From assembly GCA_900100325.1 (NCBI GenBank), contig LT629697.1:2787423-2851422 (forward strand): DNA of 64,000 bases, in the 5' to 3' direction. The notes under the pieces are model-generated. The model was given only the letters and a program-made list of their open reading frames with translations, searched no databases and had not been told where the DNA came from. Source of the DNA: Frankineae bacterium MT45 (GTDB lineage Bacteria > Actinomycetota > Actinomycetes > Mycobacteriales > Jatrophihabitantaceae). This document shows positions 37,723-50,923 of the stretch, piece after piece. Position numbers and translations under genes: made by a program. How positions within the stretch are numbered: the first letter of the stretch is position 1; every line of letters begins with the position of its first letter.

Positions 37723-38211
37723 CTAGTGCAGGTTCAGGCAACCGTCGAATTCGAAGAGGGGGTTCGTCACGGTTCGTCCGCTCGCGGCCTTGAAGGTCTG
37801 CGGGCCAACCACCGAGGAGGGCCCCGTTGCCACGTAACAGCCGGTGGCCTCGACCGAAAGGTCATAGACGATCGGCTCGATGTGCCCGTCCGGGTAAGGG
37901 AAATTCACCACGCACGACCAGTCGTCCCCCGCTCCGGAGTAACTGCTGGCTGAGCTGCCGGAGCGCGGGGCCGGTGCGACGTTGCTGGCGATCACGCCGC
38001 GGGTGCACTGGGCATAGCCATCGGGCGTTTTGTCGGATCCGCGATTGCCCAGCGCCTGCTGATCGAGCACGTAGAGGCGGGCGAAGGTGGGGCCGACGGC
38101 CGCCTCCAGGCCGTGACCGGTGATCTGCGACGTGCCACAGCCGGCCAGCGAGAACGCCAGAGCGGCACTGAGGGCGGCCGCTGCAGCTGCTGAGAAGTGG
38201 CGTCGGCTCAT
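37723..38211 (-). CDS. Putative lipoprotein coupled to ABC transporter
   Basis: The 162-residue protein has a classic lipobox: a hydrophobic signal ending ALAFSLAGCGTS, so Cys25 would be lipidated. The mature part is small, with two conserved-looking Cys residues (QCTRGV, WSCVVNFPYPDG) and the pattern FEFDGCLNLH at the end. No family was recognised. It overlaps the ABC permease by four bases, so it is part of that operon and may be a surface partner of the transporter. Confidence 0.72.
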   Translation of the reverse strand: MSRRHFSAAAAAALSAALAFSLAGCGTSQITGHGLEAAVGPTFARLYVLDQQALGNRGSDKTPDGYAQCTRGVIASNVAPAPRSGSSASSYSGAGDDWSCVVNFPYPDGHIEPIVYDLSVEATGCYVATGPSSVVGPQTFKAASGRTVTNPLFEFDGCLNLH

Positions 38212-39065
38212 CGGTTGGTCTCGTCACGACGAGCGAGCACTGTCAGCGTCACCGCGCAGAATGCCACGAGATAGACGGCACTCCACACCTCTCCCCGATG
38301 CAGCGAACCGAGCGCCTGCGGATCCATGAAGTACCCGTGCCAGGCGATGAAGGTCGTCGACGGGAGTGCGTCGCGTATCACCGAGATGCTCTCCAGCATG
38401 AGCAGTAGCTGCAGGAGGAGACCAACCACCGTCGGGCCGATGATCCCGGCCAGTGAGTTGCGAGTCAGCACCGAGACACTCGTCGCGAAGGCGGCGAAGG
38501 CTAGCGACGGCAGCAGCACGGACGCCCAACTGAGCGCGATCTTGGAGAGCGCTCCGGCGCCGGTGACCGTGCCCCCGGAGAGCGTCACCAGTGGATGGGC
38601 GCCCTCGACGAGCAGGCCGGCCGCGGTGCTGGAGACGGCCAGGATGCTGATCATCGCCACCGAGTAGCAGGCGACCGCCAGCAGCTTCGCGACGTAGATC
38701 GTCATCGGGCGCACCGAGCGCGTCAGTAGCAGCGGCCAGGTGCCGAGATGATCCTCGGTCGAGAAGATGTCTCCGGCGACGATCGCGACCAGCAGTGGCA
38801 GCGCCCAGGCGCCGGCGAAGCCGAGCACCACCAACGGCACCGCGAACCCGGAGTCGTGAATCCAGCGGCCGAAGAGCGTGTCCGAGGGGAGCGACTGGCT
38901 CACCCGCATCGCCCCGGCAAAGGCGAACGGGCCCACGAGGCAGACGACGAAGGCCAGCCGGGTTCGCCACTGGGCCGCCAGTTTCTCCAGCTCCCAGAGC
39001 AGCACCGCTCCGGTACCGGGGGCGCGGGTGCGCCGGACCGGTGTGGCCTCGACGAGCGCGGTCAC
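38208..39065 (-). CDS. ABC-2-type permease
   Basis: The 285-residue protein has six predicted membrane helices, starting after a basic N-terminus (RTRAPGTGAVLLWELEKLAAQWRTRLAF). Visible blocks are VPLVVLGFAGAWALPLLVAIVAGDIFSTEDHLGTWPLLLTRSV and YVAKLLAVACYSVAMISIL. That is the NosY/bacitracin-immunity type of ABC-2 permease that works with a single ATPase. It overlaps the ATPase gene by four bases. It sits directly beside the RiPP-like locus, so self-protection or peptide transport is possible, but this is inference. Confidence 0.88.
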   Translation of the reverse strand: MTALVEATPVRRTRAPGTGAVLLWELEKLAAQWRTRLAFVVCLVGPFAFAGAMRVSQSLPSDTLFGRWIHDSGFAVPLVVLGFAGAWALPLLVAIVAGDIFSTEDHLGTWPLLLTRSVRPMTIYVAKLLAVACYSVAMISILAVSSTAAGLLVEGAHPLVTLSGGTVTGAGALSKIALSWASVLLPSLAFAAFATSVSVLTRNSLAGIIGPTVVGLLLQLLLMLESISVIRDALPSTTFIAWHGYFMDPQALGSLHRGEVWSAVYLVAFCAVTLTVLARRDETNR

Positions 39066-40069
39066 GGCGCCTCTCCGATTGCCGGCACTCGCAAGTCGGC
39101 ATCGCCGTCGGCGGCGATGAGTTGGAGGAACATGGCCTCCAGTGCGCTGTCCTGCCGCTGCAACTCCCGGATCGCAACTGACGCCCGGCCGAGCTCGATC
39201 GTCAGCCTGTCCAGCTGCGGGACGTCACCTCGTATCAGCAGCCCACCGTCTCGGTGCCGCGTCGCATGCAGTGATTGCCCCACGATTCTCAGGGCCGCCT
39301 CGTCGTCGGACGTGATGAGGCGGTAGGTCGGATCGGGGGCCTGCGCCCGCAGCCCGTCCATCGACCCGGTGTAGCTCGTCCGGCCGTGGTTGAGCACCGT
39401 CACCGCATCGCAGACGAGCTCGACCTCGCTCATGTCGTGGCTGCTCAGCAGCACCGCGGCCCCGGATCCGGCGATGGCCCGCAGAATCACGTGTAGATCG
39501 ATCACGCCGAGCGGGTCGAGACCGGTGGTGGGCTCATCGACGATCAGCAGCCTCGGCTGGCGCAGCAGTGCCGCGGCCAGGGCCAGACGCTGGCGCTGCC
39601 CGGTGCTGAAGGCGCCGACCCGCCGGCGCTGCACCTCCAGCAGCCCGCACTGCTCCAGCACCTCCTGGATAGCCTCGTCACTGCGCTCACCGTCCAGCGC
39701 GGCCAGCAGCTCAAGATTCTTCCGGGCCGAGAAATACGGGTAAAAGCGGGGTGAATCGACGAAGCCGGCGACACCCCCGGTGCGGGCCACCGCCGAGCTC
39801 GGCGGTCCACCGAGCACTTCGATGAGGCCATTGTCTGGTCGCACCAGCCCGAAGATGACCCGCAGCAGCGTGGTCTTTCCCGCGCCATTCGGCCCGAGCA
39901 AGCCATGGATTGATCCAGGTTTTACGGCAAGTTCGGCTCCGGCCAGGGCGGTGACTGAACCGAAGCACTTGCCGACGCCCACCACCGAGAGCAGCGGTTC
40001 GGGGTCAGGCTCCTGCTCCACCAGCCGCAGCCTCGAGCCCGGTACGGCGGCGGCTCCCGACAGCGTCAC
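39062..40069 (-). CDS. ABC transporter ATPase (CcmA/BcrA-like)
   Basis: The 335-residue ATPase has Walker A GLLGPNGAGKTTLLR, a Q-loop-like segment, the signature AFSTGQRQRLALAAALLRQPRLLIVDEPTTGLDPLG (Walker B included) and the switch His in LLSSHDMSEVELVCDAV. The N-terminal 25 residues and a C-terminal ~110-residue tail are variable, as in drug- or lantibiotic-export ATPases. It pairs with the overlapping ABC-2 permease. It begins 87 bases downstream of the BlaI-like gene on the same strand. Confidence 0.93.
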   Translation of the reverse strand: MTLSGAAAVPGSRLRLVEQEPDPEPLLSVVGVGKCFGSVTALAGAELAVKPGSIHGLLGPNGAGKTTLLRVIFGLVRPDNGLIEVLGGPPSSAVARTGGVAGFVDSPRFYPYFSARKNLELLAALDGERSDEAIQEVLEQCGLLEVQRRRVGAFSTGQRQRLALAAALLRQPRLLIVDEPTTGLDPLGVIDLHVILRAIAGSGAAVLLSSHDMSEVELVCDAVTVLNHGRTSYTGSMDGLRAQAPDPTYRLITSDDEAALRIVGQSLHATRHRDGGLLIRGDVPQLDRLTIELGRASVAIRELQRQDSALEAMFLQLIAADGDADLRVPAIGEAP

Positions 40070-40156: not shown

Positions 40157-40537
40157 CTAGGCCTGCAACTCGCTATGAGCCGTCACGTGCTGCAGCCGCG
40201 CGCGTAACGCCTGCCTGAGATGGGGGTCCAGGGTGTCGACGAACCGGGAGAGCACCAGTTCCACGTCGTCGGCACCCTGGAGCTGGTCGTACATGCGCCG
40301 AGCGACCAGACCGGCGTCGTCAAAGACCGGAAGATACGCATGCGCCCGCCCGACGAGTTCTCGCCGCACCACGCCCTTGTCGAAGAGCCGGATCAGGATC
40401 GTCTGCACAGTGTTGTAGGCAAGCGTGCCGCCGAACTCGACGACCAGATCACCGGCAGTCATCGGCCGATCAGCCGCCCACAGCAGGGCGAGCACTTCAG
40501 CCTCCAGGCCACCGGCCGCCCGACGCTGACCGGCCAT
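40157..40537 (-). CDS. BlaI/MecI/CopY-family transcriptional regulator
   Basis: From ATG 40537 the protein is 126 residues, the normal size. The winged helix is visible: GGLEAEVLALLWAADRPMTAGDLVVEFGGTLAYNTVQTILIRLFDKGVVRRELVGRAHAYLPV. It is followed by a short dimerisation region (ELVLSRFVDTLDPHLRQALRARL). A BlaR1/MecR1 sensor protease is not adjacent, so signal input is unknown. It is divergent from the MFS-S9-RiPP operon and upstream of the ABC operon, so it could repress either or both. Confidence 0.9.
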   Translation of the reverse strand: MAGQRRAAGGLEAEVLALLWAADRPMTAGDLVVEFGGTLAYNTVQTILIRLFDKGVVRRELVGRAHAYLPVFDDAGLVARRMYDQLQGADDVELVLSRFVDTLDPHLRQALRARLQHVTAHSELQA

Positions 40538-40759
40538 GTCGAGGGTGATCCTTCCGCCAGATGTCCAGACAGACAGGCCTGAATCGTACCTGCGGAACGT
40601 GCTGGTGATCTGACGACGTCCCCATCGCCCAGCAGATTCGTAGCCGTCGCTGGGGCGATGCGTTGCCGATGTCGGGGCGAACCGCGTTCGCCCTGCTACT
40701 CGCTGTATCAGCACCGGTGGCACCACCTCGTCTCTTGTGACAGCGAGGAGGTGGACGAA
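40538..40759. promoter_or_regulatory. Divergent promoter region of BlaI-like and RiPP-operon genes
   Basis: The 222-base gap should hold promoters for both directions. It contains GGGCGAAC-CGC-GTTCGCCC (40675-40693), an 8-bp-arm inverted repeat, and a bulged repeat CATCGCCCAGC...GCTGGGGCGATG (40623-40660). I see no TACA-N-TGTA sequence of the classical BlaI/MecI operator type. Whether these inverted repeats are operators or RNA hairpins cannot be told by reading alone. Confidence 0.4.
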
Positions 40760-42181
40760 TTGGTAGCGAACGTCGATACCGTCGGGACGACCACGCAAGC
40801 GCGTGGCGATGACGTGAATGATGACGTGAATCCGGCCAAGGACGAGTTCCTTATGCCCGCTACCGATCGTCGCCGAGCCAAGGACTTCCGCCGCTACTGG
40901 GTGGCCGGTGCCATCGACGCGATGGGTTCGCATGCCGCCACGATCGTCGTCCCGCTGATCATCCTCGGCGCTGGTGGCTCGGTGACCCTGGCTGGCGCGG
41001 TCGCAACAATCAGCATCGCTGTCGAGACCGCGGTTGAACCGGTCGCCGGCGTGGTGGCCGACCGGGTGTCACGCCGCTCGATGATGATCCTCGCCGCGCT
41101 CTTCGCCGCCGCCGCCGCCCTCGCGCTGGCGATCGTGGTGGCCCAGGATCACTACCGGCTCGACGTCGTCATTGCCCTCGTACTGGCCGAGTCGATCTCC
41201 ACCGCCTGCTACGGCGCCGCGGCCCAGGGGGCGATCCGCCAACTCCTGCCACCGGATGATCCGCAGCCCGCCCTGGCCGCACTGCAGGCGCGGGATCAGG
41301 GAGCCGCCCTCGTCGGCCCGCCGGTCGGCGGGCTGCTCTTCAGCCTCACCCGCTGGGCCCCGCTGCTGCTCAACGCCGTCTCCTACGTCGTGACGGCGGT
41401 CCTCGTCGCCACCATCCGCACCGACCTCTCGCCCACTGCGGAATTGGATGGCCAGAGCAACGAACTCTGTGACGACGATTGCCAAGACCCGTGCCGGGAG
41501 CATGCCGGCGACCTCCCGCGAGAGAGCCTTCTCGAGTCGAGCAAGGCGGGGCTGCGACTGGCCTTCGGCCACCCTTTCCTGCGCTTCGCGCTGACCTGGG
41601 GCGCCGGGATCAACGCCGTCTTCTCCACCGTCTACTACGTGATCCTCCTCAACGCCGGCGCGGCCGGCTCCTCGGCCGCCGCGATCGGGGTGCTCCTCGG
41701 CGTCGCCTCCGGCCTCGGGTTGATCGGCTCGCTGGCCGCCCCGGCGGTACTGCGCCGAGTCACACCGACGAGGCTGATCCCCTTTACTTCTTGGCTAATG
41801 GTGCTCCTCGTAGCGGCCATGGGCTTCACCGGCGAGCTCTTTGCCCGCGGCGTGCTGTTAGGCGCGGTACTGCTGGTCTCCCCCGCCGTCAGCATCCTCT
41901 TCCAGTCCTACGCCATCGCCACCATCCCGGTGGAGCTGCAGGGACGCGTCGGCGGGGTGATGGGCTTCTTCCTCGGGGTTTCGCTGCTCGTCGCACCGAT
42001 CAGCGCCGGACTCATGGTGCAGTGGCTCTCCGGTTGGGTCATCACCACAGTGCTCGCGGTACTCCTGGCCGCGCTGGCGATCTATGCCCGCACCGGAACC
42101 AAGGCGCTGCTGGAATGCGCGGCGGCAGCGGCTGAAGCTAGTGACGCAACCGATCCGTCCCAGTCGACGGTGGAGGTCTGA
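40760..42181 (+). CDS. MFS exporter, first gene of the RiPP-like operon
   Basis: I choose TTG 40760 because AGGAGG (40746-40751) lies eight bases upstream; ATG 40853 is an alternative. The product is ~473 residues with twelve helices. Visible MFS elements are DAMGSHAATIVVPLIILGAGGSVTLAGAV, GVVADRVSRRSMMILAAL (loop 2-3 motif A) and ARDQGAALVGPPVGGLLFSLTRWAPLLLNAVSY. A central loop is acidic and Cys-containing (DDDCQDPCREH). It belongs to the MFS type used for antibiotic efflux. The stop lies two bases before the S9 peptidase ATG, so it likely exports the mature peptide or confers immunity. Confidence 0.88.
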   Translation: MVANVDTVGTTTQARGDDVNDDVNPAKDEFLMPATDRRRAKDFRRYWVAGAIDAMGSHAATIVVPLIILGAGGSVTLAGAVATISIAVETAVEPVAGVVADRVSRRSMMILAALFAAAAALALAIVVAQDHYRLDVVIALVLAESISTACYGAAAQGAIRQLLPPDDPQPALAALQARDQGAALVGPPVGGLLFSLTRWAPLLLNAVSYVVTAVLVATIRTDLSPTAELDGQSNELCDDDCQDPCREHAGDLPRESLLESSKAGLRLAFGHPFLRFALTWGAGINAVFSTVYYVILLNAGAAGSSAAAIGVLLGVASGLGLIGSLAAPAVLRRVTPTRLIPFTSWLMVLLVAAMGFTGELFARGVLLGAVLLVSPAVSILFQSYAIATIPVELQGRVGGVMGFFLGVSLLVAPISAGLMVQWLSGWVITTVLAVLLAALAIYARTGTKALLECAAAAAEASDATDPSQSTVEV

Positions 42182-42183
42182 CG

Positions 42184-43989
42184 ATGGAACTGTCGATCGA
42201 ACTCGTCCCGCCGACGCTCCCCAGCGCGGCCGAAGCCGCCCCGAACCGGCAGTGCACGATCGCCGACGCGGGTGGACGCTGTGAGGTCTTTACCCTCGAC
42301 GCGACGAGTGGCCGCCGGCGACAGGTGACGCGCCGTTCGAATGGCACCACGATGGGCGACATCAGCCCCTCCGGCGCCACCATCTGGTGGTTCGACGACG
42401 ACCTTGCCGGAGTCGGCCGCTGGATGGTCCAGCCCTTCGGTGGCGGCCCGGACGTAGTCGCGCTCCCCGGCGTCGCCGGCGGCCGCCACGCGGGGCTCGC
42501 GATGTCGGCCGACGACAGTGCCGCGATCGGAGTCGCCGACGAAACCGGCTTCGACGTCTACCTGCGCCGTAGCAACAGCGACGGGTTCACCCACCTGCTG
42601 CGCCGTCACGGTGCCGGTGAAGTGGTGGACCTTAGCCCGGACGCCTCCCGCCTGGTCATCGCCTCGGTTCCGCAGTCCCCCACCGCGCTCGAGGTCCACG
42701 ACCTCACCGGTGGCGTACCGACGGTGCTCTCCGGAGCCGAAATGCCCTTGTGGAGCAGCGGATTCCGGATCGGCGACGGGCCGGCCACCCTGCTGCTGAC
42801 CCGTCAGACCGAGGCCGGGTACCAGGTGGGGACATGGAGTGCCGCCGACGGTAGCCACTTCTGGCCCGAGGTCTTCGATACGGAGATCTCGACCAGTTGG
42901 GGCCCGGACGGCTCAGCGTTGATCCGCCAGGATCGCCATGCCCGCAGCCGCCTGCTGCGCCTCGACCTCAGCAATGGTCGGCGGCAGTTGCTGCCGACTC
43001 CACCCGGCACCATCCTGGACGCGAATCCACACGCCGACGGCGAGATCCACTACCTCTGGACCGACGTCCAGACCCCTCCGGTCGCGCGACGGGTACTCCT
43101 CCGCGACGCGGTCAGCGACACCCTCAGCGGCAGTGTCAGCGACACCGTGAGCGGACGGCCGGCGGCCGACTCGGGCGCGGACGAGATCTGGGCGGAGACC
43201 GCGGGCGGGCCCGTCCACGTGCTCTGGAACCCACCGACCGGCGAGGCCGGCGAGTCAACCGGGCAGCCCTGGCCGACCGTCTTCCTGCTCCACGGCGGCC
43301 CCCACCAGCAGGATCGCGACGCCTACGACCCGGCGATCGCCATGTGCAACGCGGCCGGGTTGGCCGTCGCGCGGGTGAACTACCGCGGTTCCAGCGGATA
43401 CGGCCCACAGTGGCGCAGCGACTTCAGCGCCGGCGTCGGCTTGACCCAACTCGAAGATCTGGCCGCCGCCCGCGAGGAGCTAGTACGGCGGGGGCTGGCC
43501 GATGCGCAGGCCGTGGCCGTCGCCGGCTGGTCGTGGGGTGGCTACCTCAGCCTGCTGGCCGCCGGGGTACAACCCACCCTCTGGCGCGCGGCCGCCGCCG
43601 CCTACCCGATCGCCGACTACCCACAGGCCTACGCCGGAGGTACGACCGAACTTCGGGCCTTGGACGAACACCTCTTCGGGGGCACCCCGCAGCAGCATCC
43701 GCAGCGCTACCGGGACGCGTCACCGGCCACCTACGTCGCACAGGTCAAGGCGCCGGTCCTGCTCATCGCCGGGGTCCACGATCCTCGCTGCCCGGCGGCC
43801 CAGATCGAGTCCTACGCCGACCAACTGCGTAGCGGCGGCGGGTCGGTCCGGCTGATCCGCAGCGAAGCCGGCCACGGCGTCCAATCCGGACAGGCGTCGG
43901 TGGATGAGCTCATCGAACTCGTCACGTTCCTGGCCGGTGAATTGCACGACCAGAACGTCACCGCCCTAGTCGGCAGTGAGGCGCCCTGA
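42184..43989 (+). CDS. S9-family prolyl oligopeptidase-like serine peptidase
   Basis: The 601-residue protein has a seven-bladed-propeller-type N-terminal region (about 1-330) and a C-terminal alpha/beta-hydrolase. Family signatures are FLLHGGPHQQDRDAYDPAIAMCNAAGLAVARVNYRGSSGYG, then AGWSWGGYLSLLAA with Ser450, VHDPRC with Asp533, and EAGHGV with His564. Such enzymes cleave short peptides, often after Pro. It is a candidate leader peptidase for the precursor, which has one Pro just before the valine run. It is two bases after the MFS gene and 83 bases before the precursor. Confidence 0.92.
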   Translation: MELSIELVPPTLPSAAEAAPNRQCTIADAGGRCEVFTLDATSGRRRQVTRRSNGTTMGDISPSGATIWWFDDDLAGVGRWMVQPFGGGPDVVALPGVAGGRHAGLAMSADDSAAIGVADETGFDVYLRRSNSDGFTHLLRRHGAGEVVDLSPDASRLVIASVPQSPTALEVHDLTGGVPTVLSGAEMPLWSSGFRIGDGPATLLLTRQTEAGYQVGTWSAADGSHFWPEVFDTEISTSWGPDGSALIRQDRHARSRLLRLDLSNGRRQLLPTPPGTILDANPHADGEIHYLWTDVQTPPVARRVLLRDAVSDTLSGSVSDTVSGRPAADSGADEIWAETAGGPVHVLWNPPTGEAGESTGQPWPTVFLLHGGPHQQDRDAYDPAIAMCNAAGLAVARVNYRGSSGYGPQWRSDFSAGVGLTQLEDLAAAREELVRRGLADAQAVAVAGWSWGGYLSLLAAGVQPTLWRAAAAAYPIADYPQAYAGGTTELRALDEHLFGGTPQQHPQRYRDASPATYVAQVKAPVLLIAGVHDPRCPAAQIESYADQLRSGGGSVRLIRSEAGHGVQSGQASVDELIELVTFLAGELHDQNVTALVGSEAP

Positions 43990-44057
43990 CCCGTTAGAGC
44001 GCGTGGCCAACAGACCATCAACAAAACTCGGGCGTTCCGCCCGCGAACTAGCATCTG

Positions 44058-44066
44058 AAGGAGGTG
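44058..44066 (+). promoter_or_regulatory. Strong ribosome binding site of the small peptide gene
   Basis: AAGGAGGTG lies six bases before ATG 44073, an almost full complement to the 16S rRNA anti-SD. It is far stronger than the sites of the flanking genes, consistent with high production of a short precursor peptide. Confidence 0.85.
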
Positions 44067-44072
44067 AGAGCG

Positions 44073-44171
44073 ATGCGCAAGACAATTGTGAAGAACGACC
44101 CCCTGGACATGATCAACCAGAACCGAGCCCGGCCGGTCGTCGTCGTGGTCGTCATCATCGTACGGCGCTAG
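44073..44171 (+). CDS. RiPP-like precursor peptide with polyvaline core
   Basis: A 32-residue peptide, missed by length cut-offs. It has a strong SD six bases upstream. Residues 1-17 (MRKTIVKNDPLDMINQN) form a basic/acidic leader-like part; residues 18-20 are Arg-Ala-Arg. Residue 21 is Pro, followed by six Val (22-27), two Ile (28-29), Val30 and two Arg. It lies in the same operon as, and 159 bases before, a B12-radical-SAM enzyme, a genomic link typical of C-methylated RiPPs such as bottromycin and polytheonamide. Beta-methylated valine (tert-leucine) is the expected product if so. Cleavage at Pro21 by the S9 peptidase is possible. The role is inferred. Confidence 0.82.
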   Translation: MRKTIVKNDPLDMINQNRARPVVVVVVIIVRR

Positions 44172-44230
44172 TTCGCCGGCGCCGGCCGACGATCCGCTGG
44201 CGGATCCGGACCGGCAATTGCCCAACGAGG

Positions 44231-44263
44231 GCTGTCGGGGCGAGATGAGTTCGCCCCGACAGC
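44231..44263 (+). terminator. Strong hairpin between precursor peptide and radical SAM genes
   Basis: A perfect 13-bp inverted repeat (GCTGTCGGGGCGA, 44231-44243, and its complement 44251-44263) encloses the loop GATGAGT. It is in the 159-base gap after the peptide stop. No U-tract follows. It is a plausible leaky terminator or RNA stabiliser that keeps peptide mRNA in excess over the enzyme mRNA, as seen in many RiPP operons. Confidence 0.75.
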
Positions 44264-44330
44264 TCTCCGGCCAGATTACCCGTTCCCACCTCGAATTCAC
44301 CCGCAAACTCGATGCCCGAAGGGGCCGATC

Positions 44331-46325
44331 ATGCAGATCGCACTCGTCAACATGCCATGGGCGCTCATCGACGTGCCCTCCCTAGCCGTCGGGATTCTCG
44401 GCCGATCGGCCCGCCAGACGCTCCCCGATGCCCGGGTCAACGTGGTGCACGCAAACCTGGAGTACGTCGACTGGCTCTGCGAGCGCCGCGAGTTCACCCT
44501 GGGCGAGTACCACTTCCTCGCCCTCGAGTCCTACTTCGCCGGCCTCGGGGACTGGGTCTTCTCCTCGGCGCTCTACGACGACCCGCAGTGGCGCAACGAG
44601 CACATCGGCCACGAACTCGCCTACACCCCGGAGCAGGAGAAGCTCAGCCTCGAACTGCACGCCAGCGCCTGCGAGTTCATCGACGATCTGGTGACGCGCA
44701 TCCTGGCCGACAACCCCGATGTGGTCGGGTTTACCTCGACATTCCAGCAGAACACGGCCTCGCTGGCCGCGGCTCGCGTACTCAAGGCGCGGGCACCGCA
44801 CGTCATCACCATGATGGGCGGGGCCAACTGCGATGGCGCGCAGGGCGCGGCCGTCGCCCGCAACTTCGGCTTCGTCGACTTCGTGGTGCGCGGTGAGGGG
44901 GAACACGCCTTCCCGGCCCTGCTGCTTGCCCTCGACGACGCGCGCCGCGAAGGGCGGCCGGCAGCACCCGAGGCGCTGGCCCGCATCGATGGACTCTGCT
45001 GGCGCGATGGGTCGGGGAGTGTCGTGGCCAACGACATGAGCCGCACTCCCCTGGCCCCGGCCGAGATCGTCGCCCCGGACTACGACGGGTACTTCGAGCG
45101 GCTGGAGGCCTCGATCGCCCATGACTGGGTGGAGCCGAAACTCGTCCTCGAAGGGGCCCGGGGCTGCTGGTGGGGCGAGAAGCATCACTGCACTTTCTGC
45201 GGATTGAACGGCACATTCATGCAGTTCCGCAGCAAGAGCCCGAGCAAGTTCTACGACGAGATCATCGACCAGGTGCGGCGCCACCAGGTGATGGACATGT
45301 TCATCGTCGACAACATCCTCGACATGAACTACCTGCGCTCGCTCATCCCAGCCCTGGCCGAATCGGGCTACGACCTGCGCCTGCAGTACGAGATCAAGTC
45401 CAACCTCAAACGCCCGCAACTGGCCGCACTGGCCGATGCCGGCCTGGTGAACGTGCAGCCCGGCATCGAGAGCCTGAGCACGAGTGTCCTGAAAATCATG
45501 GACAAAGGGGTCACCGGGGCGCTCAACGTCCGGATGCTGCGGGACGCCGCCACCGTCGGGTTGTCGGTCTCATGGAACTACCTCTACGGCTTCCCGGGCG
45601 AGCAGAGTCAGGACTACGAGGACGTCCTGGCCCAGCTGCCGGCTCTGCACCACCTGCCACCACTGGAGGCGGTCGCCCGCATCGCGATCGAGCGCTTCAG
45701 CCCCTTCTTCGACCGCCCGGAACTCGGATTCGGCGACGCCCGCCCCGACCCGCAGTATCGCCGCACCTACGACCTGCCCGAAGAGGAACTGCGAGAACTG
45801 GCCTACCTCTTCACGGCCGACCCCCACGGCATCGATGACGAACTCTCCGACCGTCTCCGCGCCGCGGCCCGGCTCTGGCAGGACGGCTACCCGGACTCGA
45901 CCCTGACCCACGTCGACCTCGGCGAGGAGATCCTGCTGGTCAGTCACCGCAAGTCCTTCGACTGGTCGGTGCATTGGCTGCGCGACCCGCTGGAGACGGC
46001 GATGTTCCGGCTGCTCGACCAGCCGCACTCGGTCGCCTCGCTGCTCGAACACCTGCGTAAGGGCGGGGACGGGGTGATCGAGACGACCGACGTCGAGGCC
46101 GTACTGGGTGAGTGGCGCGACCTCGGCATCGTCTTCACCGACAACGGCCAGTACATCCAAGTGGCGCCGGAGGCGACCAATCAGGAGCTGGTGCGGTTCG
46201 CCCGTACCTATGAGTTCGACCCTGAGCCAGAGACGGGCGCTGACCCTGATAGTCCCGACTCAGACGGCGATCCCGACGGGGCGCGGCAACAAGCCGACGC
46301 ACCGGTACTGGAGGCAGCGCGATGA
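44331..46325 (+). CDS. B12-binding radical SAM enzyme, RiPP C-methyltransferase type
   Basis: The 664-residue protein has an N-terminal cobalamin-binding-like region (ALVNMPWALIDVPSLAVGILG; VVGFTSTFQQNTASLAAARVLKARAPHVITMMGGANCDG; VVRGEGEHAFPALL). It also has a radical SAM core with Cys279-x7-Cys287-x2-Cys290 in ARGCWWGEKHHCTFCGLNG. That context is the pattern of the RiPP maturation radical SAM protein 1 family. Further core parts are SNLKRPQLAALADAGLVNVQPGIESLS and SVSWNYLYGFPGEQ. A C-terminal ~130 residues is acidic and DUF-like. Family members install methyl groups on unactivated carbons; here the target is probably valine/isoleucine of the adjacent peptide. ATG follows a short GGGG. Confidence 0.93.
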   Translation: MQIALVNMPWALIDVPSLAVGILGRSARQTLPDARVNVVHANLEYVDWLCERREFTLGEYHFLALESYFAGLGDWVFSSALYDDPQWRNEHIGHELAYTPEQEKLSLELHASACEFIDDLVTRILADNPDVVGFTSTFQQNTASLAAARVLKARAPHVITMMGGANCDGAQGAAVARNFGFVDFVVRGEGEHAFPALLLALDDARREGRPAAPEALARIDGLCWRDGSGSVVANDMSRTPLAPAEIVAPDYDGYFERLEASIAHDWVEPKLVLEGARGCWWGEKHHCTFCGLNGTFMQFRSKSPSKFYDEIIDQVRRHQVMDMFIVDNILDMNYLRSLIPALAESGYDLRLQYEIKSNLKRPQLAALADAGLVNVQPGIESLSTSVLKIMDKGVTGALNVRMLRDAATVGLSVSWNYLYGFPGEQSQDYEDVLAQLPALHHLPPLEAVARIAIERFSPFFDRPELGFGDARPDPQYRRTYDLPEEELRELAYLFTADPHGIDDELSDRLRAAARLWQDGYPDSTLTHVDLGEEILLVSHRKSFDWSVHWLRDPLETAMFRLLDQPHSVASLLEHLRKGGDGVIETTDVEAVLGEWRDLGIVFTDNGQYIQVAPEATNQELVRFARTYEFDPEPETGADPDSPDSDGDPDGARQQADAPVLEAAR

Positions 46326-47047
46326 CCAGCCAACTACTCACCGATCCGAGCTCACTCGGAACCGACGCCGACGCTGATTCCGGCTCCGGCTCCGGCTCCG
46401 CAGCTCTTCAGCTACGACTGTGGCGCCACCACGACCCGGAGACGACCCAGTTGCCCGCTGTCTCGGCCGGAACTGAGCTGGTCCGACCAGGTGCTGACCC
46501 GGCGGCCACCGCCGCCCGGCTCTTCGCCGCCGGCGCGCGCCGCGTGGAGATCGGAGAGCCGATCGACCTCTCCGGAGACACGGATCCGCACCTGCTGATC
46601 ACGTCCATGCTCCTGCTCGGCGAGCTCACGGCGCTGCGGGTCGTCCTCGACTGGGAGCTGGACCTGGGTGACCTACCCGACGTCTGGACCTCGATCAGCC
46701 ATCTCACCCCGCCGCGGCACCTGGTCGGGATGAGCGAGGAGGCCGAGGAGAAGATCCTCGGTCCGTGGCGGTCAACCTTCTACCTCGACAAGTGCGTCTT
46801 CCGGCAGGGGCCGGGGTTCATCCAGGTCCGCGATCGCCGTGACTCGACGCTGCACCGGCTCACTATCGATGACCCGCGCTACCTCGACGCGGTGGCCAAC
46901 CTGAGCCGCGGCTGCGCTATCGCTTCGGTCCCGTCCGATGTCTGGGAGGCGCTACTGGGCGAACAGCTGGTCGGAGTCGTCGGCGACCTGGCGTGGTGGA
47001 TGCCCTACCGGGTGCGGCGCTGGCCCTGGCCGTCGTTTGCGGTCTGA
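46322..47047 (+). CDS. DUF5825-like partner of RiPP radical SAM enzymes
   Basis: The 241-residue protein overlaps the radical SAM stop by four bases (ATGA), so the two are translated together. Recognisable segments are LRLWRHHDPETTQLPAVSAGTELVRPGADPAATAARLFAAGARRVEIGEPIDLSGD and HLTPPRHLVGMSEEAEEKILGPWRSTFYLDKCVFRQGPGFIQVRDRRD. From memory this resembles the DUF5825 family that accompanies RiPP C-methyltransferases in actinobacteria. Its role is unknown. It may bind the precursor or the enzyme. No catalytic motif is visible. Confidence 0.75.
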   Translation: MTSQLLTDPSSLGTDADADSGSGSGSAALQLRLWRHHDPETTQLPAVSAGTELVRPGADPAATAARLFAAGARRVEIGEPIDLSGDTDPHLLITSMLLLGELTALRVVLDWELDLGDLPDVWTSISHLTPPRHLVGMSEEAEEKILGPWRSTFYLDKCVFRQGPGFIQVRDRRDSTLHRLTIDDPRYLDAVANLSRGCAIASVPSDVWEALLGEQLVGVVGDLAWWMPYRVRRWPWPSFAV

Positions 47048-47371: not shown

Positions 47372-47393
47372 GCCTGAGCGGCTCCGCTCAGGC
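47372..47393. terminator. Hairpin at the convergent end of the small gene and L,D-transpeptidase gene
   Basis: GCCTGAGCG and its complement (9-bp arms, loop GCTC) overlap the last codons and stop of the L,D-transpeptidase gene. It is a likely bidirectional terminator. Confidence 0.65.
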
Positions 47394-48524
47394 GGCGGCC
47401 GGCGAGTTGTTGAAGCTGGAGGTCGGCAGGTTCCACTCACCGAAACCGTCGTAGGGCTTCATCGCCGGGCCGCCGGTGTTGGTGTAAATGACGACATCGC
47501 CGATCCGGCTGAAGTTGTAGAACCACTTCGCGTCCGGCGTGTTGAGGTTCGTGCAGCCGTCGGAGGTTGAGCGTGCACCGATGTTGCGTCCGTTCCACGC
47601 CGCGGCATGGACGAACTCACCACCGTTGGTGAGGCGGACCGACCAAGGCACGATCAGGTCGTAGTTGCCGAGGAGTCCACCGCCGCCGACCATCCGGACC
47701 GCGCCGTTGGGACGCAGCTTGTCGGTCCCGGGCGCGGACTCACCGAGCTGCTGGACCACCTTGATTCCATTGGCCGTCGGCGTGATCGGCGCGCCGCAGG
47801 AGGTCAGCATCGGCGTCCGCACGGCCACACCATTCGACTTCACCACCATGCGCTCGGTCGCACAATTCACGTAAGAAATATGGGCATCGCCGGTGGCCAT
47901 CGAGAGCGTGAGACTGTCGTCGAAGGCCAGCCCGGCTCCGGCCGACACGCCCTGAGTCGCCATGTTCATGGTGATCGAGGCGTTCGCGGGCCAGAACTGG
48001 TTGGCGACCCCCGGCGTCGGTGCGGGACGATAGTGCGCCTCGATTGGGTATCCGGCGTTGATGGATGAGGCTTCGAAGTACCACGAACCGTGGTTCACGG
48101 CTCCGTTGACCTTCACCACGGTCGCCGCCGCGAAGGCGTTGCCGTCGGTGATCTTTGAGGAGAAGTAGGCGACGATCGGCATGCCCACGCCGTAGGTAGC
48201 GCCGTCGCTGTTCAGGAGTCGAATGTGGACGGTCTGAGCGGTGACCGGCTTCGGACTCGGGGTGGGGGTCGCGGCCGCGGTCGTCGCGGCGGGCGAGGTG
48301 TCACTCGGGGAGGCCGACACAGCGGTGGAGGGCGCGGTCGTCGGCGATGACGACTGGGTCGACGGTCCGGAGGAACCACCGCAGGCAGCGAGGGCAAGGC
48401 TCAGGGCCAGTCCAGCCGCCACCAGGATGCCGAAACGTCCAGCCTTCGTCTGGCGAGACGATCCGAGTGCTCGGCTGATCCCCTTCGCGCGATTCGGCGG
48501 CAGCTCTCCTTGACGACCCGACAT
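47388..48524 (-). CDS. L,D-transpeptidase lipoprotein (YkuD, mycobacterial type)
   Basis: From ATG 48524 the protein is 378 residues. A lipobox (LALSLALAACGGS) is followed by a Ser/Thr/Pro-rich linker. Two Ig-like domains follow (VHIRLLNSDGATYGVGMPIVAYFSSKI onward), and then a C-terminal YkuD domain with VHAAAW and TSDGCTNLNTPDAKWFYNFSRIGDVVIYTN. These enzymes make 3-3 cross-links in peptidoglycan with a catalytic Cys. The canonical His in S-H-G-C is Asp here (S-D-G-C), an unusual substitution. The mature protein would be anchored outside the membrane. Confidence 0.9.
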   Translation of the reverse strand: MSGRQGELPPNRAKGISRALGSSRQTKAGRFGILVAAGLALSLALAACGGSSGPSTQSSSPTTAPSTAVSASPSDTSPAATTAAATPTPSPKPVTAQTVHIRLLNSDGATYGVGMPIVAYFSSKITDGNAFAAATVVKVNGAVNHGSWYFEASSINAGYPIEAHYRPAPTPGVANQFWPANASITMNMATQGVSAGAGLAFDDSLTLSMATGDAHISYVNCATERMVVKSNGVAVRTPMLTSCGAPITPTANGIKVVQQLGESAPGTDKLRPNGAVRMVGGGGLLGNYDLIVPWSVRLTNGGEFVHAAAWNGRNIGARSTSDGCTNLNTPDAKWFYNFSRIGDVVIYTNTGGPAMKPYDGFGEWNLPTSSFNNSPAAA

Positions 48525-48910
48525 ACCCGGCCCCACATCCTCAGACTAGTTGAATGTTCAATCATAGCTAGCGAACGCGTCGATCACCCTTCTCCACATC
48601 GACGCCGGCACGCAGTGCCACAGCAATGGTCCTACAGATTCGGCCGTCACAGTGCCGGGGTGCTCGGGGCACCGCCGACCGAGTTCGGCCCGGCCGCATC
48701 CAGGTCAGGGGCACCAAGACAGCACCAACCCGCAGGAAGCCGTATCAAATAGGCACCTTCGTGCGTCTTTCCTGTATCGGACCACGCGGTCGACCGCGAC
48801 AGCGCCGGCCTGGCCCGTTCGACAAATCTGTATGAATTCACAGCTGGCGACTGGCCGGCGATCAGGCAACCCGAGTGATTCCCGCGCTTTTCAGACCCTG
48901 GAGGTTGGCA
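48525..48910. other. 386-base divergent intergenic region
   Basis: No gene found. It contains TTGAATGTTCAA (48550-48561, 5-bp arms), a perfect 14-bp palindrome CGCGGTCGACCGCG (48785-48798), and a short hairpin GGTGC-TCGGG-GCACC near 48658. It should hold promoters for the L,D-transpeptidase and the cysteine peptidase. Nothing identifies a specific regulator. Confidence 0.5.
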
Positions 48911-50923
48911 ATGCCCGTATCAGATCTCGCCGCACTGCGGACGGCGGTGGAAGCGGCCGGTTCCTCCTGGAGAGTGCGAGAACTGCCGGCGGACGAACCC
49001 GGTCACGGCTTGGGATGGGAGCCCTCCCCGGAGCCGCTGCGCACAGCGGCGCTGGAGCGCGGCAGCCGACTACTCACGGCGATCCGGCGCAGATCAGCTG
49101 GGGCGCTGGGAGCCGGCGGTCCAGGGATCGCCTCGGCCTTCGATTGGCGCTCGCGCGGGGTCGTCGGTGATGTGCAGGACCAGGGGTGGTGCGGATCCTG
49201 CGTCTCCTTCGCCACGACCGGCCTCCTCGGCGCCCAGGCCGGGATTGAACTCGGCCAGAACGGACTGCATTTCTCTGAGGCCGACCAGCACTTCTGCTCC
49301 AGCCACGGAGCGAACTGTGGTGGCTGGAACAATGCGACCGCACTCGGGCAGGTTCAGTCCCGCGGTGTCGTGCTGGACGCCGTCTTCCCCTACATGACGG
49401 CCTTCGACAATCCGCCCCAGGGCGATCCGAATGACCCCGAGCACCTGTGGCTGGCCTACTGCCGCGACGAGGGCGATCGAGTCCATGAGGCCTACAAGGC
49501 GAACACGTTCACCGCGCACACGGGGGATGATCGCAAGGCCTACCTCTCCACCGTCGGCCCGATGGTCTGCGGCTTCACCGTCTACGAGGACTTCGACAAC
49601 TACGGCGGCGGCGTGTACCGGCACACCTACGGCGATGTCCGGGGCGGTCACGCGGTCCTGGTCATCGGCTACAGCGACGCTGATCAGGCCTGGATCTGCC
49701 GTAATTCATGGGGACTCACCTTCGGTGGTGCCGCGCACCCGGACGGCACCGGCGCCGGCTTCTTCAAGATGGGCTACGGCGAGTGCGGCATCGACGACGA
49801 GGCCTTCTATGGCCTCACCGGTGTCACCCTCCCGCCGGCTCGATGGCTGGTGCCGACACTGCAGGTTCCGGCCCTCGCCGAGATCTCGCCGGTCTCGCGC
49901 AGCACCGACCACCTCGACATCTTCGTGACCGACGTCAATGGCGCGATCTACACGGCGGCCTGGGAGCCGGACTTCCCGGACTGGTGGCATGGCTGGTGGC
50001 GGTTGAACAACGGTTCGGCTGCACCGGGCGCGCCGGTGCACGGAGTCTCGCGAAGCACCGACAAACTCGACGTATTCGTCACCGGCACTGACAACCACAC
50101 CTACACGGCGGCCTGGGAGCCGGACTTCCCGGACTGGTGGCATGGCTGGTGGGTGGTCAATGGCGGCGTGGTCGCCCCCGGTGCGCACATCACGGCGGTG
50201 TCGCGAAGCACCGATCATCTGGACATCTTCGCCGTCGGCACCGACGGCGGCGTCTACACCGCAGCCTGGGAACCCGACTTCGCTGACGGCTGGCACGGCT
50301 GGTGGCGCATCGGCGACGTGGTGGCGCCACAGGGTGCCGCCGTCTACGGCGTCTCCAGAAGTACCGACAAACTCGACATCTTCGTCACTGACGTCAACGG
50401 CTCGATCCAGACCGCGGCCTGGGAGCCCGGCTCCAACGGCTGGCAGGGGTGGTGGAGCCTCAACGGTGGTCAGGCCGCCCCGGGGGCGCCGGTGACCGTG
50501 GTCTCCCGGAGCACCGACAAGCTCGATGTCTTCGTGACCGGGACCGACGGCGGCGTCTACACCGCGGCCTGGGAACCGGACTTCACCGATTGGTGGCACG
50601 GCTGGTGGCGCATCGGGAGCCTGGTGGCGCCGCAGGGTGCACCGGTGCACTGCGTGTCGCGAAGCACCGACAAACTCGACATCTTCGCCACCGACGTCAA
50701 CGGCTCGATCCAGACTGCGGCCTGGGAGCCCGGCTCCAACGGCTGGCAGGGGTGGTGGAGCCTCAACGGTGGCCGCGCAGCCCCGGGAGCGCCGGTCACC
50801 GCGGTCTCCCGGAGCACCGACAAACTCGATGTCTTCGTCGTCGGCACCGATTCCTGCATCTACACCGCGGCCTGGGAACCGGACTTCACCGACTGGTGGC
50901 ACGGCTGGTGGCGGATGGGGTAG
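48911..50923 (+). CDS. Papain-like C1 cysteine peptidase with seven propeller-type repeats
   Basis: GGAGG before ATG 48911 fixes the start (670 residues). Residues 1-80 look like a short propeptide. The C1 domain follows (about 85-300): QDQGWCGSCVSFA with oxyanion Gln91 and nucleophile Cys97, GGHAVLVIGYSD with His247, and CRNSWG with Asn265. The rest is seven repeats of 50-51 residues, each VSRSTDxLDxFxxxxxxxxxTAAWEPxxxxWxGWWxxx, as in sugar-binding seven-bladed propellers (PLL-like). No clear signal peptide is seen. Substrate and target are unknown; a lectin-targeted protease is inferred. A chagasin-like inhibitor gene follows. Confidence 0.88.
   Translation: MPVSDLAALRTAVEAAGSSWRVRELPADEPGHGLGWEPSPEPLRTAALERGSRLLTAIRRRSAGALGAGGPGIASAFDWRSRGVVGDVQDQGWCGSCVSFATTGLLGAQAGIELGQNGLHFSEADQHFCSSHGANCGGWNNATALGQVQSRGVVLDAVFPYMTAFDNPPQGDPNDPEHLWLAYCRDEGDRVHEAYKANTFTAHTGDDRKAYLSTVGPMVCGFTVYEDFDNYGGGVYRHTYGDVRGGHAVLVIGYSDADQAWICRNSWGLTFGGAAHPDGTGAGFFKMGYGECGIDDEAFYGLTGVTLPPARWLVPTLQVPALAEISPVSRSTDHLDIFVTDVNGAIYTAAWEPDFPDWWHGWWRLNNGSAAPGAPVHGVSRSTDKLDVFVTGTDNHTYTAAWEPDFPDWWHGWWVVNGGVVAPGAHITAVSRSTDHLDIFAVGTDGGVYTAAWEPDFADGWHGWWRIGDVVAPQGAAVYGVSRSTDKLDIFVTDVNGSIQTAAWEPGSNGWQGWWSLNGGQAAPGAPVTVVSRSTDKLDVFVTGTDGGVYTAAWEPDFTDWWHGWWRIGSLVAPQGAPVHCVSRSTDKLDIFATDVNGSIQTAAWEPGSNGWQGWWSLNGGRAAPGAPVTAVSRSTDKLDVFVVGTDSCIYTAAWEPDFTDWWHGWWRMG
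49892..50920 (+). repeat. Seven in-frame ~150-bp repeats encoding propeller blades
   Basis: Repeats start at 49892, 50045, 50198, 50351, 50501, 50654 and 50804. They alternate between two blade types (WHGWW and WQGWW forms). The block 50198-50500 (blades 3-4) closely resembles 50501-50803 (blades 5-6), pointing to a recent 303-bp duplication of a two-blade unit. Confidence 0.85.

Follow-up and report, generated by a model that had tools for sequence, protein, structure and literature searches.

The subject of this analysis is a biosynthetic operon in Frankineae bacterium MT45, whose genome is a single contig of 4,228,602 bases. The window is the whole 64,000-nucleotide stretch that was analysed (contig LT629697.1, positions 2,787,423 to 2,851,422 of the forward strand), and all coordinates below refer to it. 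Five plus-strand genes at 40760-47047 make up one operon in the order major facilitator superfamily (MFS) exporter, S9 peptidase, precursor peptide, radical S-adenosylmethionine (rSAM) enzyme and DUF5825 protein. They most probably form an operon of the clavusporin type, which directs a ribosomally synthesized and post-translationally modified peptide (RiPP); the kind is already known and the window adds a further member to it, a reading to which we assign a probability of about 0.86. A second genome of the same genus (the genus sister; G001, locus L022) carries the same operon. The features of the window operon are as follows.

40760..42181, plus strand: MFS exporter; PF07690 (MFS_1), 105.9 bits
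42184..43989, plus strand: S9 (prolyl oligopeptidase family) peptidase, MpcP-like by position; PF00326 (Peptidase_S9), 136.3 bits
44060..44068, plus strand: Shine-Dalgarno region of the precursor gene, GGAGGTGAG; identical in the genus sister
44073..44171, plus strand: precursor peptide gene encoding MRKTIVKNDPLDMINQNRARPVVVVVVIIVRR, 32 amino acids; ATG at 44073, stop codon ending at 44171, ribosome site GAAGGAGGTGAGAGCG
44227..44267, plus strand: intercistronic hairpin, from folding; letters unchanged in the genus sister
44331..46325, plus strand: B12-dependent rSAM enzyme of the C-methyltransferase family; TIGR03975, PF02310, PF04055
46322..47047, plus strand: DUF5825 protein, rSAM partner; PF19142, 221.6 bits (cut-off 25), E 8.4e-66

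The MFS frame is open over 40658-42181; its start is plausibly TTG 40760 or GTG 40763, preceded by GAGGAGG. Only 2 bases separate it from the peptidase gene, and the rSAM and DUF5825 genes overlap by 4 bases. The positions, the spacings and the family calls of the original prediction, which had seen five adjacent plus-strand genes as one operon, are all borne out. No cobalamin riboswitch or other Rfam element reaches its gathering threshold between 30000 and 56000.

The precursor consists of a predicted leader (residues 1-21) and a predicted core, VVVVVVIIVRR, at residues 22-32. Several lines of evidence indicate that its gene is real. A leave-out profile of 66 distinct peptides from relatives, with the window and the genus sister excluded, was run on the 712 short open reading frames (ORFs) of the window; it ranks the precursor first with E 5e-8, the second ORF reaching 0.95, and it was made from peptides located beside homologous operons rather than from the published clavusporin precursor. 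Across the 99-base gene, six bases differ between the window and the genus sister, and they amount to three silent codons, one change of stop codon (TAG/TAA) and two exchanges between valine and isoleucine (V/I), which are the only changes in the core. The spacer 3' of the gene has diverged between the two, except for the hairpin. The V/I run is itself distinctive: no other run of at least six occurs in any of the six reading frames of the 64-kb window, and in a set of 12,535 ORFs of 18-200 amino acids from 166 sequences, runs of at least seven occur only in the window, the genus sister and Streptomyces xylophagus. The window peptide matches no NCBIfam or Pfam model, nor do six related precursors match NCBIfam or four of these six match Pfam.

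Relatives of the operon were collected largely through DUF5825. The PF19142 family is present in 6 of 61 genomes comprising the host and its relatives, in 16 of 394 genomes of the class and in 27 of 397 of the order, and a scan of genome contigs turned up 195 sites coding for a relative, the best 80 of which were kept, mostly from Streptomyces. Loci were judged when 3.6 kb or more of the locus precedes the rSAM gene (n = 105, with the window and the genus sister included, three duplicate contigs removed and near-duplicates kept). The full order of five genes on one strand occurs in 80 of the 105, mostly in Streptomyces. DUF5825 lies downstream of the rSAM gene in 100 of them, partly by construction since most loci were fetched via DUF5825, and a recognizable precursor is present in 93; in the other 12 no precursor was found, and 10 of those have an rSAM enzyme of less than 48% identity. 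The precursors were located by a first regular expression, which gave 86 loci. The peptide of one locus (L076) proved false and was replaced by eye; 12 precursors in all, this replacement included, were added by eye and brought the set to 97 loci, which include the window slice and three contigs present twice (L024/L090, L028/L124, L032/L164) and represent 76 distinct peptides.

The leaders follow roughly the pattern M-[RQEK]-K-x-[IV]-[IV]-x-N-D-P, with exceptions that include NNP, GDP and HDP. The cores are more varied. Those of Streptomyces include GIGITITIPFR, SVGITVTVPFR and GVGVVVYLR, Saccharothrix and Actinokineospora have VEVSVSVSVGF, another family of the order has NVTVTVTVKVSF, one genus of the order has GPVGVRISLK, and S. 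xylophagus has VIVVIIVSS. Past residue 12, the V/I run reaches nine residues in the window and the genus sister and seven in S. xylophagus; none of the other 73 among the 76 distinct peptides has a run longer than three. The original prediction had taken the 32-residue peptide to be a RiPP precursor and had named homologous short Val-rich peptides beside the enzyme in relatives as its test; both hold, given the profile score and the related peptides adjoining homologous rSAM genes, with a related leader upstream of the rSAM gene in all 97 loci. One of these loci, in Streptomyces sp. CBMA152 (L111), has two unlike precursor genes in tandem 5' of the rSAM gene, ...AVGVSVKVTIPLRNAEGGEEE and ...SVGVSVSVSRRRNDPGAEE.

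The rSAM enzyme scores 582.5 bits against TIGR03975 (rSAM_ocin_1, 'RiPP maturation radical SAM C-methyltransferase'; cut-off 281.85, E 1e-174), and its B12-binding (PF02310, about residues 113-198) and Radical_SAM (PF04055, core about residues 278-434) domains are both above cut-off. The motif Cys279-x7-Cys287-x2-Cys290 is invariant in all 78 aligned rows, which comprise the window and 77 relatives. The enzyme type and cysteines named in the original prediction are thus confirmed, as is the DUF5825-like protein downstream, by its PF19142 score. B12-dependent rSAM C-methyltransferases are familiar from other ribosomal peptides: polytheonamide PoyC and the bottromycin enzymes methylate at C-beta and convert Val to tert-leucine, although their subfamily, leaders and clusters differ from those of the window. 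We know of no DUF5825 protein in the polytheonamide or bottromycin systems.

The C-terminus of the rSAM enzyme may contribute leader binding. Residues 460-640 were modelled alone with AlphaFold 2 (35 sequences; pLDDT 80, and above 90 across most of the matched stretch). VIA-align places about residues 523-606 closest to TbiB1 bound to a leader peptide, with TbiB1 and leader as the two best rows (Z 10.1 and 10.0, rmsd 2.4 and 2.2 over 80 and 78 residues). TbiB1 is the leader-binding RiPP recognition element (RRE) protein of a lasso peptide, and the model suggests that this segment is probably a built-in leader-binding winged-helix domain of RRE type. DUF5825 was modelled from 52 sequences with pLDDT 90. 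Its sequence-profile search against the PDB gives a best E of 0.67, and Foldseek finds no clear match among solved folds (best E 0.17). In VIA-align, residues 40-154 give the best score, Z 5.6 to NifB, and residues 156-218 score Z 4.4 to ThcOx, a cyanobactin oxidase; both values lie inside the range of common arrangements, and no fold is claimed, attractive as a second RRE-like half in DUF5825 would be.

The machinery of the operon has published counterparts. One paper (PMC12257519) reports that amino acids are C-methylated during clavusporin biosynthesis by a B12-rSAM enzyme paired with DUF5825, a pair with homologues in the clusters of that paper, and MpcP, an enzyme of the prolyl-oligopeptidase family, is described as involved in clavusporin leader removal (PMC12951456). 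The title of the clavusporin paper itself presents them as peptide surfactants promoting bacterial development (Zhang, Li, Overton, Seyedsayamdost, Nat Chem Biol 2025). As far as these citing papers describe the clavusporins, they share with the window the C-methylating pair and a leader peptidase of prolyl-oligopeptidase type. Plasmid pSCL4 of Streptomyces clavuligerus (L166) carries MFS, hydrolase, precursor, rSAM and DUF5825 genes in the same order, and its precursor, MQKDVIHNDPLAGDEENRKPSVGITITVPFRNAEDADED (...NRKPSVGITITVPFRNAEDADED), can be read from the gap that separates the annotated genes for the hydrolase and the rSAM enzyme. Judging by the name, we infer that this is the clavusporin locus. 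It differs from the window in being plasmid-borne and in having the core SVGITITVPFR and an acidic tail. Because the same machinery has been published for the clavusporins and pSCL4 has the same operon, the kind of system must count as known. The original prediction therefore stands as to the RiPP operon, the precursor and the rSAM type, whereas its description of the system as undescribed falls to the 2025 reports (PMC12257519, PMC12951456). The pSCL4 precursor gene is missing from the PLSDB gene table (L166 from 4812 onwards).

What is unusual in the window operon is the unbroken V6-I2-V core, which differs from the common Streptomyces cores, with its Arg-Arg end and no acidic follower, together with a host in which SsgA and chaplins have no match. 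The searches made of open-licence PMC literature yielded no description of a poly-V/I core. The nearest counterpart beyond the genus is S. xylophagus NRRL B-12029 (L086), which has the same gene order and a precursor, ...NQERANRVIVVIIVSS, with a seven-residue V/I run; it lacks a Pro before the core and ends in Ser-Ser where the window has Arg-Arg.

A pathway of five steps can be proposed. The 32-residue precursor would be translated from its gene, and its leader (MRKTIVKNDPLD...) would then be bound by the RRE-like winged-helix domain of the rSAM enzyme as modelled, with DUF5825 helping, as its pairing in the literature suggests. The cobalamin-dependent rSAM enzyme would methylate the core at unactivated carbons. 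As the family suggests, these would most likely be the C-beta atoms of Val and Ile, which would give residues of tert-leucine type. The S9 enzyme would cut after Pro21 and release VVVVVVIIVRR with up to nine C-methylations, for which the computed [M+H]+ is 1250.867 + n x 14.016. Finally, the mature product would be exported, probably by the MFS protein. The product would be amphiphilic: a short, very hydrophobic strand that ends in two arginines.

For the S9 enzyme, to which the original prediction gave no role, leader peptidase is the most likely assignment, based on its position and the parallel with MpcP. The core most likely comprises the last eleven residues, with cleavage after Pro21, because a Pro precedes it and Pro is frequent there in loci with an S9 homologue. 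The tally covers 97 peptides from 96 loci, that is, the 97 precursor loci without L149 (less than 7 kb), with both peptides of L111 counted and duplicate contigs kept. Where the locus has an S9 homologue, 68 of 86 peptides have a Pro within residues 15-24, the window peptide among them; in loci without one, 6 peptides have such a Pro and 5 do not.

Several observations weigh against assigning the operon to the clavusporin type with this pathway. Since 18 of the 86 peptides that accompany an S9 homologue lack a Pro at positions 15-24, cleavage after Pro is a tendency and not a rule of the family, and the idea that the S9 enzyme goes with Pro was rejected as such; S. xylophagus, the sole poly-V/I member seen beyond the genus, is among the Pro-less peptides. 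Among solved structures, the S9 peptidase is closest to acylamino-acid-releasing enzymes rather than to strict prolyl oligopeptidases. The TbiB1 rows stand just about one Z unit over unrelated winged-helix rows in VIA-align. For the rSAM C-terminus, Foldseek ranks other proteins first, with many winged-helix proteins among them and E 0.002 or worse, and a sequence-profile search of this domain against the PDB gives a best E of 0.26. The likeness to clavusporins is drawn from the descriptions in the citing papers. Lastly, not every B12-rSAM enzyme of a RiPP cluster methylates: the one in the biphenomycin-like pbs cluster is reported to make a C-C cross-link between ortho-tyrosines, with no methylation (PMC12257519).

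This last precedent speaks for the idea that the window enzyme catalyses another reaction (a cross-link, an epimerization or a single methylation elsewhere) and uses cobalamin for something other than methyl transfer; the TIGR03975 name, moreover, is an annotation and no test. An aromatic cross-link is unlikely here because the predicted core has only V, I and R, which leaves no aromatic partner, and the enzyme reported with a DUF5825 partner does C-methylate (PMC12257519). A different reaction is accordingly judged improbable. Slightly less probable again is that the operon represents a RiPP class truly distinct from the clavusporins, with the enzyme families alone in common. Such a class would accommodate the unbroken nine-residue V/I run, which contrasts with alternating G/S/T-V/I cores (a run longer than three occurs in 3 of the 76 distinct peptides), and an rSAM identity of about 55-64% to full-operon loci outside the genus, with a maximum of 64% to S. 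xylophagus, which is below orthologue level. Yet gene order, leader family and all three enzymes are shared, and an rSAM tree of 46 loci groups the window with S. xylophagus, Austwickia and two Pseudonocardiaceae. In that tree the window and the genus sister join at 100/100. Support for the joins that follow is 90/68 (weak) for S. xylophagus, 96/88 for Austwickia and 99/97 for Saccharothrix/Actinokineospora; the placement of S. xylophagus and Austwickia, both on long branches, is unsure.

The most doubtful alternative by far concerns the precursor, whose ORF could be a chance frame or encode a regulatory leader peptide. It is just 32 codons long, and between 40300 and 47400 no sigma-70-type promoter was found (shuffles average 0.5, and the consensus is uninformative for actinomycetes) and no plus-strand terminator-like site. 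Against these stand the strong ribosome site, the related peptides that adjoin the enzyme in 93 of the 105 judged loci, the leave-out profile at E 5e-8 and differences from the genus sister that, the stop codon aside, are limited to silent changes and V/I swaps; on the latter two grounds a chance or regulatory origin was rejected.

The hairpin between the precursor and rSAM genes has an 18-pair stem that includes two G-U pairs, a loop of 5 nucleotides and no T run. A long stem lies 3' of the precursor in all 20 loci that were folded, hand-picked from the 97. The DNA is very G+C-rich, and the z-score of the stem against shuffles is above -1 in two of the 20 (L109, L116). The element is probably an attenuator or a transcript-stabilizing structure, and it could yield more precursor than enzyme from a single transcript.

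The clavusporins are said to lower surface tension, to help raise aerial hyphae in Streptomyces and to occur widely in actinomycetes. Markers of such development were sought in 23 of 41 DUF5825-positive genomes, hand-picked and mostly with strong DUF5825 matches. SsgA is found in 20 of the 23. The three without a match are the window genome, the genus sister and G022, which is the third genome of their family with DUF5825; G022 is 85% complete, and its contig does not hold the precursor. Of 24 genomes analysed from this family, SsgA was found in one; the 12 with completeness of 90% or more and contamination of 5% or less all lack a match. Chaplins are present in all seven Streptomyces genomes tested, 6 to 12 in each, and have no match in the window genome, the genus sister or G022. 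Among the 16 DUF5825-bearing genomes tested from outside Streptomyces, 14 have no chaplin match and a single marginal one occurs in each of the remaining two, so that chaplins were rejected as a family-specific marker and SsgA alone sets the family apart.

Because the host has no SsgA match, a developmental role as in Streptomyces is less likely here, even if the absence of a gene is no proof against aerial growth. It is more likely that the product acts at the cell surface or the air/water interface, or against the membranes of competitors. A more specific proposal, possible if somewhat against the odds, is that the window, the genus sister and S. xylophagus make up a poly-V/I branch and that its product is an unbroken series of C-beta-methylated V/I residues, a strand close to poly-tert-leucine but of ribosomal origin. 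In the genus of the window it would serve a non-aerial use, such as surface wetting, biofilm formation or membrane attack, and the built-in RRE would let the rSAM enzyme work iteratively along the unbroken run instead of on alternate residues. Nine consecutive beta-branched residues offer a clean test of the reach and spacing rule of an enzyme that methylates unactivated carbons, since the alternating Streptomyces cores cannot separate a one-in-two register from a residue preference. A host without SsgA or chaplin matches likewise makes the role of peptide surfactants outside development testable.

Some relatives depart from the common arrangement. Four Streptomyces loci (L101, L104, L140, L159), in which neither an MFS nor an S9 homologue was found, branch together in the rSAM tree and have GM-x-x-I-D/N-I-P-I cores. 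In L082 and L083, short basic peptides (MKIKKVAIKKVTHGSCKYHVVLKQQGK and a relative) lie directly 5' of TIGR03975-like enzymes of 40-43% identity and are possibly another precursor family. In two genomes of one genus (G543, G725), DUF5825 has in-frame stops (L055, L056) and the surrounding stretches (L079, L080) have no rSAM match; the operon seems to be decaying there.

In the window, a BlaI/MecI-type repressor (PF03965) at 40157-40933 and an ABC transporter pair at 38208-40069, both on the minus strand, are divergent from the operon, and the repressor is a possible regulator of it. On the other side lie a YkuD L,D-transpeptidase at 47388-48536 and, on the strand opposite to it, a frame of 682 amino acids at 48875-50923 with a papain-family (C1) protease domain.

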